A stretch of 41,535 nucleotides of DNA from an uncultured Gammaproteobacteria bacterium. GTDB taxonomy: Bacteria > Pseudomonadota > Gammaproteobacteria > Steroidobacterales > Woeseiaceae. Numbering within the stretch: the stretch's first letter is position 1; each line of letters opens with the position of its first letter. The notes under the pieces are model-generated. The model saw nothing but the letters and a program-made list of their open reading frames with translations. It made no database searches and was not told the DNA's origin. The stretch is from assembly GCA_937899415.1 (NCBI GenBank), contig CALBPI010000019.1, positions 1-41,535 of the forward strand, given 5' to 3'. This document shows, piece after piece, positions 12,061 to 18,524 of the stretch. The position numbers were made by a program, and so were the translations under genes.

Positions 12061-12069
12061 TGTGGATAA
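12061..12069 (-). promoter_or_regulatory. DnaA box upstream of dnaA
   Basis: TGTGGATAA is the exact complement of the DnaA box TTATCCACA. It sits 15 bases before a -10-like TATAAG at 12084-12089, so it occupies the -35 zone of a likely dnaA promoter. DnaA bound here could repress its own gene, as known in E. coli. It may also be part of the origin, since pseudomonads use the rpmH-dnaA gap. Confidence 0.7.
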
Positions 12070-13502: not shown

Positions 13503-13511
13503 TGTGGATAA
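13503..13511 (-). promoter_or_regulatory. DnaA box, perfect consensus (reverse)
   Basis: TGTGGATAA, an exact match to the complement of TTATCCACA, begins one base after the dnaA stop codon. Confidence 0.8.
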
Positions 13512-13536
13512 CTTGTGGACGTCTCAGACGGCCAAT

Positions 13537-13545
13537 TTATCCACA
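13537..13545 (+). promoter_or_regulatory. DnaA box, perfect consensus (forward)
   Basis: TTATCCACA, an exact consensus match, faces the box at 13503-13511 with 25 bases between them. Confidence 0.8.
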
Positions 13546-13611
13546 GGCGGTACACAGTTTAGGCGCGTGGTTGCAGACAGTTTTCGAACCACACAGATTA
13601 ATTATAAGCTA

Positions 13612-13633
13612 CTGATAAATAAAGTTTTATCAG
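13612..13633. repeat. AT-rich inverted repeat in candidate oriC
   Basis: CTGATAAA and TTTATCAG form a perfect eight-pair stem with a six-base loop within the most AT-rich stretch of the window. It may be part of the DNA unwinding element or a weak transcription-control hairpin before dnaN. Confidence 0.45.
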
Positions 13634-13722
13634 AGTTTTGCACGGCGCTGAGCCGGGCTAATAATAACTACAGTTTTTCATAAAGAGATTCTTTCTCTAA
13701 TAAACAGATCGGGAACGATTGC

Positions 13723-14826
13723 ATGAAACTCACTGTGTCGCGGCAGGCGCTGCTAGGTGCTCTCCAGGCTGTCATTGGTGTCGTTGAGCGACGCCAGACG
13801 ATGCCGATACTCGCCAACATCCTCATGCAGGCGAAAGACGACCGCCTGGCCATGACGGCCACGGACATCGAGGTGGAGTTGCAGTCTGGCTGCGAAGCAC
13901 AGATCGGTATGGCCGGTGACATCACCGTGCCGGGCCGGAAGCTGTTCGACATCGTCAAGGCTTTGCCCGAAGGTGCCGAGCTCAAGTTGGCGCTCAAAGG
14001 CGAGCGGCTTTCCGTGCAAAGCGGTCGCAGCCGCTTCAGCCTCTCGACGCTGCCGGCGGCTGAGTTTCCGGTCATCGACGACATCGAAGCGACGCAGACC
14101 CATGAGCTGCCCGTCGATGTCGTTCATCGCCTGCTCGACAAGACCTACTTTGCTATGGCGCAGCAGGACGTGCGGTACTACCTAAATGGCATGCTCATGG
14201 AGACCGACGGCGGCGTGATCCGCGCGGTGGCGACCGATGGGCATCGTCTCGCCTTATGCCAGGCGGAGCTCGGCGACAAAAACCTGCCCAGCGAACAGGT
14301 CATCGTGCCGCGCAAGGGGGTGCTCGAGCTGCAGCGCATGCTGGGCGACCAAGGCAGCCTCACTGTCAGCATGGGCAAGAACCACATCCGGATTCACTCC
14401 GGGGACATCCGCTTCACCTCCAAACTCATCGACGGGCGCTTCCCGGACTACCAGCGCGTCATTCCCGCGGAAACCGGGAATTACATGGTGGCGGACCGCG
14501 ATACCCTGCGCCGGGCGCTCCAGCGCGCCGCAATCCTTTCGAACGAGAAATACCGGGGTATCCGGCTCGAGATCCGCGACAGCGGCGCCAAGATCATGGC
14601 GCACAATCCCGAGCAAGAAGAAGCTGAGGAGCAGGTTGAAGTCGAATACAGCGGTGAAGACATTGAAATAGGCTTCAATGTGACCTACCTGCTGGACGCG
14701 ATTGGTGCCGTTGACAATGAGAGCGTGCGCATCAGCCTCAACGATGCGAACTCCAGCTGCGTCATCACGGTCCCCGATATCGATCAGTCGGACGCAAAAT
14801 ACGTCGTCATGCCCATGCGGCTGTAG
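13723..14826 (+). CDS. dnaN: DNA polymerase III beta subunit (sliding clamp)
   Basis: The beta clamp tethers DNA polymerase III to DNA. At 367 residues it is full length. It begins MKLTVSRQALLGALQAVIGVVERRQTMPILANIL and ends DAKYVVMPMRL, the family's typical termini (MPMRL is the C-terminal peptide), with three clamp domains between. The start is ATG 13723. It follows the candidate origin and precedes recF by 18 bases, the standard dnaA-dnaN-recF order. Confidence 0.98.
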   Translation: MKLTVSRQALLGALQAVIGVVERRQTMPILANILMQAKDDRLAMTATDIEVELQSGCEAQIGMAGDITVPGRKLFDIVKALPEGAELKLALKGERLSVQSGRSRFSLSTLPAAEFPVIDDIEATQTHELPVDVVHRLLDKTYFAMAQQDVRYYLNGMLMETDGGVIRAVATDGHRLALCQAELGDKNLPSEQVIVPRKGVLELQRMLGDQGSLTVSMGKNHIRIHSGDIRFTSKLIDGRFPDYQRVIPAETGNYMVADRDTLRRALQRAAILSNEKYRGIRLEIRDSGAKIMAHNPEQEEAEEQVEVEYSGEDIEIGFNVTYLLDAIGAVDNESVRISLNDANSSCVITVPDIDQSDAKYVVMPMRL

Positions 14827-14844
14827 GCCGGGGCGCAGCGGGGC

Positions 14845-15912
14845 GTGATTCTCCAGCGACTTCAGATCGCCAATTTCCGCTGCATTACCGATCTCGATCT
14901 GTCGCTGACCTCGCCGGTCAGTGTCATTGCGGGGCCCAACGGGGCCGGCAAGACGAGCCTGATCGAGGCGGCTTACTACGCCACGCGCGGCCGCTCGTTT
15001 CGCCAGCCCCGTAGTGAGCGGCTCGTGCGCCACGGCCAATCCACGTTCCGTATCGTCGCCACGCTGCAGCTCGCGGGGCGAGAGCGCCGGGTTGGCCTGG
15101 AATACGGGCGCGGCGTGCACCGGATCCGTATCGACGGCGCAGACGCCCGCAATCTCGCTGATATCAGCGGCAAGCTCGTGTTGCAGGTGATCGAGCCTGA
15201 AATCCACCATCTCGTTGCTGAGGGTCCCGAAGGCCGCCGCCGATTCCTCGACTACGGTGTGTTCCACGTGGAACCTCGCTATCTGCCGGCCTGGCAGCGT
15301 TACCGCAAGACCCTCAAGCAACGGAACGCGGTGCTGCGCGCCGGGGGTTCAGCTGCAGAGCTTGAAACCTGGGACCAGGCGCTGGTCGCAGCTGGGGAGC
15401 TCATTGATGGTTACCGCAACGGTTACGCGCAGCTGCTGCGGGAGCCGATAGCCGAGACCGCCTCGAGGCTGGGGCTTGATCGAATTGATGTGGGCTACCG
15501 CCCGGGCTGGGAAGCCGGGCAAACGATGCTCAATGCGCTGGCCGCGAACGTCGATCGAGACCGGCAGCTCAGGCAAACGACCGTGGGCCCGCACCGGGCT
15601 GATCTGCGCGTGACGTGGTCCGGGCGGCTCGCGAAGAGCGTGGTATCGCGCGGGCAGCAGAAGCTGCTGGCGTCATCCTTGATCCTGGCCCAGGCGCGAT
15701 TGCTGGCGGGCCTCAAGAACGACGAGGCCGTCATGCTGGTGGACGATCCCGCCGCGGAGCTGGACTCGGGTGCCCTGGCTCGGCTCATGCGAGAACTCGA
15801 GGACATGCCCGGACAGCTGGTCATCACGGGTCTCGACGCGAATATCCCGGGGTTGCCCGAATCCCACGACGTGTTCCACGTGGAACACGGGGCGCTGCAA
15901 CCCGAACCCTGA
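14845..15912 (+). CDS. recF: DNA replication and repair protein RecF
   Basis: RecF is an SMC/ABC-like ATPase that helps load RecA at single-strand gaps. The 355-residue protein has Walker A GPNGAGKT at 30-37, the RecF-family segment VFHVEPRYLPAWQRY, a signature region near SRGQQKLLASSLILAQ, and Walker B VMLVDDPAAELD. The start is GTG 14845, 18 bases after dnaN. Two parS-like sites lie inside the gene, at 15260-15275 and 15872-15887. Both are read as the residues VFHVE in the same frame. Confidence 0.97.
   Translation: MILQRLQIANFRCITDLDLSLTSPVSVIAGPNGAGKTSLIEAAYYATRGRSFRQPRSERLVRHGQSTFRIVATLQLAGRERRVGLEYGRGVHRIRIDGADARNLADISGKLVLQVIEPEIHHLVAEGPEGRRRFLDYGVFHVEPRYLPAWQRYRKTLKQRNAVLRAGGSAAELETWDQALVAAGELIDGYRNGYAQLLREPIAETASRLGLDRIDVGYRPGWEAGQTMLNALAANVDRDRQLRQTTVGPHRADLRVTWSGRLAKSVVSRGQQKLLASSLILAQARLLAGLKNDEAVMLVDDPAAELDSGALARLMRELEDMPGQLVITGLDANIPGLPESHDVFHVEHGALQPEP
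15260..15275. promoter_or_regulatory. parS-like ParB-binding site 1 (inside recF)
   Basis: TGTTCCACGTGGAACC matches the parS palindrome TGTTCCACGTGGAACA of pseudomonads in 15 of 16 positions. It overlaps a conserved RecF peptide (VFHVE), so it is constrained by both protein and DNA function. Confidence 0.75.
15872..15887. promoter_or_regulatory. parS-like ParB-binding site 2 (inside recF, 3' end)
   Basis: TGTTCCACGTGGAACA is a perfect 16-base palindrome and a full match to the parS type used by chromosomal ParB of pseudomonads. It encodes VFHVEH near the C-terminus of RecF. Confidence 0.85.
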
Positions 15913-15918
15913 TCGCGG

Positions 15919-15934
15919 TGTTCCACGTGGAACA
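15919..15934. promoter_or_regulatory. parS-like ParB-binding site 3 (recF-gyrB intergenic)
   Basis: A second perfect copy of TGTTCCACGTGGAACA lies 7 bases after the recF stop and 47 bases centre to centre from site 2. Here no protein-coding constraint can explain the sequence, which strengthens the parS reading for all three. Confidence 0.88.
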
Positions 15935-16004
15935 CCGGGTTTCTGGTTCATTTCGCGACAAAACCGCGCGGCAGAATTCTGCCGAATGGATTTGACCGCC
16001 GTGA

Positions 16005-18524
<2,520 letters not shown>

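Follow-up and report, generated by a model that had tools for sequence, protein, structure and literature searches.

parS-like centromere sites within recF, and their apparent imprint on RecF residues in much of the Gammaproteobacteria

The window analyzed in this work is a stretch of 41,535 nucleotides from an uncultured gammaproteobacterium of the Woeseiaceae, and it makes up an entire contig (C19) of a 3.94-Mb draft genome. It contains three copies of a 16-mer palindrome that, judging from sequence comparisons, are very probably parS sites of a chromosomal ParABS system, to which ParB would bind. Two of them lie within the recF coding region (sites 1 and 2; Table 1) and would represent an old recF pair that fixes both silent positions and amino acid residues of RecF.

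Table 1. Location in the window of the parS-like sites, the neighboring genes, and the origin markers
Feature	Position	Strand	Remarks
DnaA box	12061–12069	-	Exact; 5' of dnaA
dnaA	12102–13502	+	Origin marker; open reading frame as listed, start uncertain; named by eye from its translation
Candidate origin (dnaA-dnaN gap)	13503–13722		Two exact DnaA boxes
DnaA box of the dnaA-dnaN gap	13503–13511	-	Exact
DnaA box of the dnaA-dnaN gap	13537–13545	+	Exact
dnaN	13723–14826	+	Named by eye from its translation
recF	14845–15912	+	355 amino acids; GTG start, TGA stop at 15910–15912; host of sites 1 and 2
parS-like site 1	15260–15275		TGTTCCACGTGGAACC; one end mismatch (AACC); in recF
parS site 2	15872–15887		TGTTCCACGTGGAACA; perfect palindrome; within the 3' end of recF
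Terminator-like hairpin	15916–15937	+	Site 3 plus flanks; poor T run
parS site 3	15919–15934		TGTTCCACGTGGAACA; perfect palindrome; recF-gyrB gap
gyrB	16056–18524	+	Later ATG possible at 16083; named by eye from its translation

An earlier note on this DNA had described a 16-mer that was perfect at 15872 and 15919 and had a single end mismatch at 15260, with no further copy in the window, two of the copies being inside recF and both coding for VFHVE in the same frame. All of these points were borne out. Scanning the window for TGTTCCACGTGGAACA with up to three mismatches allowed returned exactly three matches, with one mismatch at 15260 and none at 15872 and 15919; shuffled windows gave a mean of 0.13 matches at the same tolerance, and three matches were obtained in none of 100 shuffles. 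All three copies are within one mismatch of the 16-bp palindrome TGTTYCACGTGRAACA (one, zero, and zero mismatches, respectively). In the frame of RecF, site 1 codes for V139-F-H-V-E143 plus the start of P144 and site 2 codes for V343-F-H-V-E347, giving two in-frame sites with parS codons in one gene, a grouping made here as a recF-embedded parS pair; site 3 lies past the gene, starting 6 bases beyond its stop codon. The genome-wide count of the motif, which had been proposed as a check, led to the same picture. No fourth site within one mismatch was found in the draft genome (3,938,189 bases in 102 contigs, 98.41% complete), and the one extra place with two mismatches (C62:4275, in a scan allowing up to two) was considered to be at chance level, since a reversed control pattern also yields one place. 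The cluster at the origin thus holds, with all three sites in 675 bases of the dnaA-dnaN-recF-gyrB region and the motif rare elsewhere, although the sequence missing from the draft may contain another site.

The genes of this region follow the order dnaA, dnaN, recF, and gyrB. Since GC skew gave no clear origin within the window, exact DnaA boxes were used as markers. The three sites are located about 1.65–2.3 kb from the middle of the dnaA-dnaN gap, and about 3.2–3.9 kb from the exact DnaA box at 12061.

A single ParB_N protein was found in the genome, a 298-amino acid ParB encoded on contig C6, where its gene is directly flanked by those for ParA and RsmG (both named by eye). This protein aligned (E value of 8e-55) to chain 6t1f (Chromosome-partitioning protein ParB), which we take to be the Caulobacter ParB, and, with the columns counted by eye, its residues at the places of Caulobacter R173 and G201 are R and G, respectively. 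According to the partial text available of PMC7383237, residues 173 and 201 distinguish ParB from Noc, and they are absolutely conserved in ParB. The genome therefore encodes a chromosomal ParB with specificity residues of the parS type and a ParA partner, and this ParB lacks the Noc-type residues (Q173 and R201 in Caulobacter numbering). ParB and Noc are related and their sites are different yet related, so it could be argued that another palindrome-reading protein, for instance a Noc-like one, binds the repeats instead of ParB. We consider this extremely improbable, since the only ParB_N protein of the genome carries the ParB-type amino acid at both of the residues that separate ParB from Noc, and since the 16-mers are identical to the published parS1 and parS2. 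In other bacteria, ParB dimers load at parS, close as clamps and slide along the DNA, and the complex is then moved by ParA. With ParB as the binding protein, its dimers would load at the three 16-mers of the window, close as clamps and slide across the recF region, and ParA would move the ParB complex so that the origin region would be segregated first.

Sites of this type are already known, since parS sites embedded in recF have been reported for Pseudomonas aeruginosa, and the window adds a distant member. As given in the partial texts available, parS1 of P. aeruginosa is TGTTCCACGTGGAACC and parS2 is TGTTCCACGTGGAACA (PMC4368675), both are located in recF (PMC5521831), and the parS sites nearest to oriC are those in recF, at ~4 kb (PMC3909081). 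Likewise from partial texts (PMC4368675 and PMC5098823), the need of parS1–4 for origin segregation was shown in this species, one of these four near-oriC sites is enough for segregation, and sites bound in vivo have zero or one mismatches, other predicted sites not being seen bound. In the recF gene of P. aeruginosa PA7 (L206), exactly both 16-mers were found at places aligned with sites 1 and 2. On the basis of this alignment, sites 1 and 2 correspond to parS1 and parS2 in their known recF location: both 16-mers are shared, the first one down to its end mismatch, and they occupy corresponding places of recF near the origin. The two arrangements differ in their further sites, which in P. aeruginosa are parS3, parS4, and six weaker predicted ones (again from partial text), whereas the window has its third site in the recF-gyrB gap and none other within one mismatch. 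Compared with chromosomal ParABS-parS systems in general, the window shares the 16-bp palindrome, the cluster at the origin, parA-parB beside rsmG, and a ParB of the R173/G201 type, and it differs in having two of its three sites in a coding gene whose protein they apparently mark. A further difference is found with Caulobacter, where the accessible part of the literature places the native parS sites elsewhere and describes recF-gyrB as a hot spot tolerating inserted parS well (PMC5815017). That region of Caulobacter tolerates inserted parS, yet the outgroup recF genes examined carry no native site.

The distribution of the recF sites was determined in the family and order of the window and then in the whole class. 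The first set comprised 40 genomes, our own included; RecF was found in 38, and the loci fetched numbered 30. All 29 loci of other genomes contained one or more 16-mers within two mismatches of TGTTCCACGTGGAACA, and 26 of these 29 contained at least two. Among 370 genomes of the class, a site within one mismatch of TGTTYCACGTGRAACA was detected in 322, ParB (E value of 1e-10) in 347, and RecF above the cut-off in 297. The recF gene was analyzed for 110 of these 297 genomes, drawn from the higher RecF scorers, four of which (L096–L099) had been chosen first since their genome had no site. Any site was found in 106 of the 110 genomes; recF carried one or both of its sites within one mismatch in 99, and both in 80; the two recF sites accounted for 179 of the 238 sites in total, and in 70 genomes all sites were in recF. 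Pooling of all recF genes (170 plus 80, minus four duplicates) resulted in 246 distinct ones, and 29 of them had been fetched because their genome had zero or one site, so that the following totals do not represent an unbiased sample: a site within two mismatches was present at position 1 in 194 genes, at position 2 in 201, and at both in 171, with 30 genes having position 2 only, 20 having position 1 only (plus three with a gap at position 2), and 22 having neither. The distribution of mismatches was two-peaked: exactly three mismatches were counted in just three genes at position 1 and four at position 2, whereas 49 genes at position 1 and 38 at position 2 had at least four mismatches or a truncated stretch. 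On a FastTree tree of RecF built from the columns outside the motif, parsimony required a minimum of 17 state changes for site 1 and 21 for site 2, which indicated more than a single event. When joint loss of both recF sites was examined with a pairs test, 9 pairs were supported and the median p was 0.5.

A different reading of this distribution would be that RecF needs the VFHVE peptides and that codon choice generated the parS-like DNA as a by-product; the peptides do occur in the majority of the RecFs examined from Gammaproteobacteria. Codon choice would predict about 14 genes at each position with the parS codons, far from what was seen. Among the 246 related genes, the FHV[EK] peptide was encoded by CAC-GTG-[GA]AA in 181 of 189 cases at position 1 and in 177 of 193 at position 2, against 13.9 and 14.5 expected from the codon usage of the same genes, these expected values resting on small per-gene counts plus a pseudocount and the rows being related. 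The first 170 genes had behaved in the same way (129 of 134 at position 1 with 9.2 expected, and 123 of 131 at position 2 with 9.3 expected). Synonymous sites were also compared with the rest of recF, as the earlier note had proposed, and seven of the motif codons (V142, V346, V139, E347, E143, H141, and H345) had the strongest codon bias among 267 recF columns, mixed only with four Ser columns; we read the latter as inflated by the measure, since Ser has two separate codon boxes. Values for these top codon columns ranged from 0.49 to 1.14 bits versus a median of 0.033 elsewhere, the background of the test including the motif codons. In codons F140 and F344 the third base falls on the free parS position; these two codons, close to that median, and residues 144 and 348 had 0.03 to 0.10 bits. 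Codon for codon, this column pattern corresponds to a footprint of the 16-mer.

The amino acids follow the site as well. A site necessarily brings nearly this peptide with it, which is trivial; it is not trivial that the peptide is hardly ever found without the site, and this argues against a need of RecF for the peptide. Among the genes with at least four mismatches, FHV[EK] was retained in only one of 49 at position 1 and in none of 38 at position 2, the alignment at the C-terminus of RecF being less certain than at position 1. The sole case, which shows that the peptide can occur without the site, is L236 (Pseudomonas fragi), which retains FHVEP at position 1 with non-parS codons and four mismatches and is perhaps a recent loss of the site. 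The 28 genes without site 1 among the first 170 keep F140 in all cases and D136, G138, and W150 in 26 cases each, and H141 is kept in just eight of them; the entropy of residues 142 and 143 amounted to 3.6 and 3.2 bits without site 1 versus 0.2 and 0.6 bits with it. The idea put forward earlier that peptide and site persist together is upheld by these data and becomes sharper: since the genes losing the site lost H-V-E and kept the neighboring conserved residues, it is apparently the site that makes the peptide persist.

Variation within the sites suggests that, at places where parS is permissive, the protein would push back. Base 5 of the parS palindrome may be C or T and, by symmetry, base 12 may be G or A; in recF, the change at base 5 is silent (Phe) and that at base 12 replaces Glu by Lys, at residues 143 and 347. 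At position 1, 71 of 194 genes had the silent variant and 24 had the Lys variant; at position 2, the numbers were 90 and 26 of 201 (Fisher p of 3e-8 and 1e-12 for positions 1 and 2, with relatedness ignored), and parsimony gave 42 and 48 changes for the silent variant versus 19 and 20 for the Lys variant. As the silent variant is the commoner one, the DNA would allow both and the protein would prefer Glu, a preference that gives the protein some say and to that extent favors a role of the peptide in RecF. The other tolerant place would be the end of site 1, which closes with a C (proline 144) in 83 of 194 genes, versus one of 201 at position 2. Proline 144 would thus explain the end mismatch of the site at 15260, which looks like a coding compromise and not like random decay.

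Genes from outside the class, and from orders within it that have lost a site, were informative in the same respect. For other classes of the phylum, 40 recF genes were compared, and none contained a parS-like site within three mismatches, or FHV[EK] at position 1. Near the C-terminus, FHVE was found in two of these 40 RecFs, where an F-x-V-x-x-G pattern is common that looks like a protein feature of its own. Five solved RecF chains among those listed, presumably from Deinococcus, Caldanaerobacter, and Thermus, also lack the motif at position 1. In Enterobacterales (seven named genomes and E. coli K-12), position 1 reads CFHNEP in eight of eight, and position 2 reads MFAVDQ (three), MFRVEH (three), MFHVEQ (one, Pantoea) or MFTVEK (E. 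coli), with zero to four mismatches; these position 2 sequences look like relics. Four Enterobacterales genes are within two mismatches at position 2 and are counted in the 201. A working chromosomal ParABS is not expected in these four, which weighs against the explanation given here; the partial text available of PMC3909081 describes Enterobacteriaceae and Pasteurellaceae as lacking par genes. A ParB search in the seven named genomes gave no match in four and weaker matches (E values of 7e-21 to 2e-36) in three, and since the same search also matches the E. coli control genome, a match alone is no proof of a chromosomal ParB. In Vibrio, all six genes have lost position 1 (four to six mismatches) and are within two mismatches at position 2. 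That RecF itself needs the peptides, a view to which F140 and the C-terminal F-x-V-x-x-G pattern lend something as protein features, is very unlikely in the light of the codon counts, of the loss of the peptide from genes without a site, of FHNEP at position 1 and varied C-termini in Enterobacterales, and of the solved chains. The parS codons far above expectation, the peptide gone without the site, and its absence from position 1 in the 40 outgroup genes suggest instead that the DNA element dictates these RecF residues.

Fifteen ParB-bearing genomes contained neither recF site; a site within one mismatch was located elsewhere in eight of them and none was found in seven, and these seven weigh against the explanation given here. 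Four genomes of family f60 (G083, G205, G294, and G367; L075, L096, L097, and L098) have a weaker ParB match (E values of 5e-34 to 2e-37) and no parS within one mismatch. ParB matches in other genomes were mostly 1e-48 or stronger, a few others also being weak, and the f60 genomes may have a ParB of altered specificity or a system in decay. Neither a parS within one mismatch nor a recF site was found in genome G265 (f143, L081), whose ParB match looks normal (E value of 1e-55). No ParB match at an E value of 1e-10 was obtained for L099 and L111 (G192 and G286, about 1 Mb), whose recF sites look half-decayed (FHAEP with three mismatches, and a C-terminal site with two and one mismatches), as if caught mid-loss. 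Pantoea coffeiphila (L245) has a perfect parS 16-mer at position 2 and only a weak ParB match (E value of 1e-24), and this 16-mer is either a relic or used by another ParB. A 2.1-Mb MAG labelled Klebsiella pneumoniae (L219, CAMAQZ010000056.1) has a strong ParB match (E value of 2e-54) and both recF sites; it is unlike the other Enterobacterales examined, its label looks wrong, and it was left out of the seven named Enterobacterales. Finally, genes from Pseudoxanthomonas, Luteimonas, and Lysobacteraceae (L205, L216, L218, and L239) have a third parS-like site about 1.15–1.3 kb ahead of the recF stop, which probably places it close to where dnaN and recF meet.

Site 3 of the window would be an extra copy beyond the recF stop. 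Together with its flanks it forms a 22-bp perfect inverted repeat right after this stop, the sole terminator-like match in 14800–16200, and it might therefore be a transcription terminator between recF and gyrB, not a parS site. The features of an intrinsic terminator were found only in part: a stem is present, the T run is poor, and the single match compares with an average of 0.8 in shuffles. The core of the repeat is moreover an exact parS of 16 bp, and parS-like sites (compared by their cores) also occur in several other genomes at the recF stop or close to it. A role as terminator in place of parS is consequently very unlikely, and site 3 could be both parS and terminator. Of the loci scanned downstream of recF, 241 had 150 bases or more there. 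In five loci (L120, L155, L183, L192, and L199) a site within one mismatch starts at −1 to +28 from the end of the recF stop, and all five have lost position 2. Position 2 is kept together with a site at 0 from the end of the stop in L042, L109, and L174, and together with an extra site at −12 in L173 and at +75 in L145. Based on these comparisons, site 3 of the window is probably a lineage-specific extra copy. Since copies near the stop occur in a few genomes that have lost site 2, it may also be an intermediate of relocation, and the window looks like a duplicated state en route to relocation, the cases being few.

In dual-use coding DNA, one stretch is selected both for the protein sequence it encodes and for a DNA-binding protein. 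The situation in recF would differ in that the DNA element appears to set amino acids, and not just silent positions, across much of a class. Sites 1 and 2 would be an old pair carried in recF by much of the Gammaproteobacteria, where the same bases code for a centromere and for RecF residues 139–143 and 343–347, and selection for ParB binding would fix, besides silent positions, amino acids that are otherwise unneeded (H141, V142, and E143; H345 and E347). It is likely that this parS pair was fixed in recF early in Gammaproteobacteria and that FHV[EK] is an imprint of segregation and not of repair, drifting when parS moves or ParB is lost, with the copies after the stop as an exit route. Literature on recF with parS or ParB, on parS in coding sequences or codons, and on gammaproteobacterial parS contained no claim that parS shapes RecF among the matches listed, which mostly exclude subscription papers and were available in part. 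Among those same partly available matches, the generality of recF-embedded parS is the part for which no published account was found.

If this interpretation is correct, a DNA element, and not protein function, would account for strongly conserved motifs of a protein across much of a bacterial class, which would advise caution in inferring function from conservation. The many separate losses would provide a natural experiment on the compromise reached between a centromere and a gene that use the same bases. The main parS locations would be predictable in many Gammaproteobacteria ahead of experiment, and the RecF sequence would be a readable record of the loss of ParABS, as in the Enterobacterales examined, or of its relocation.
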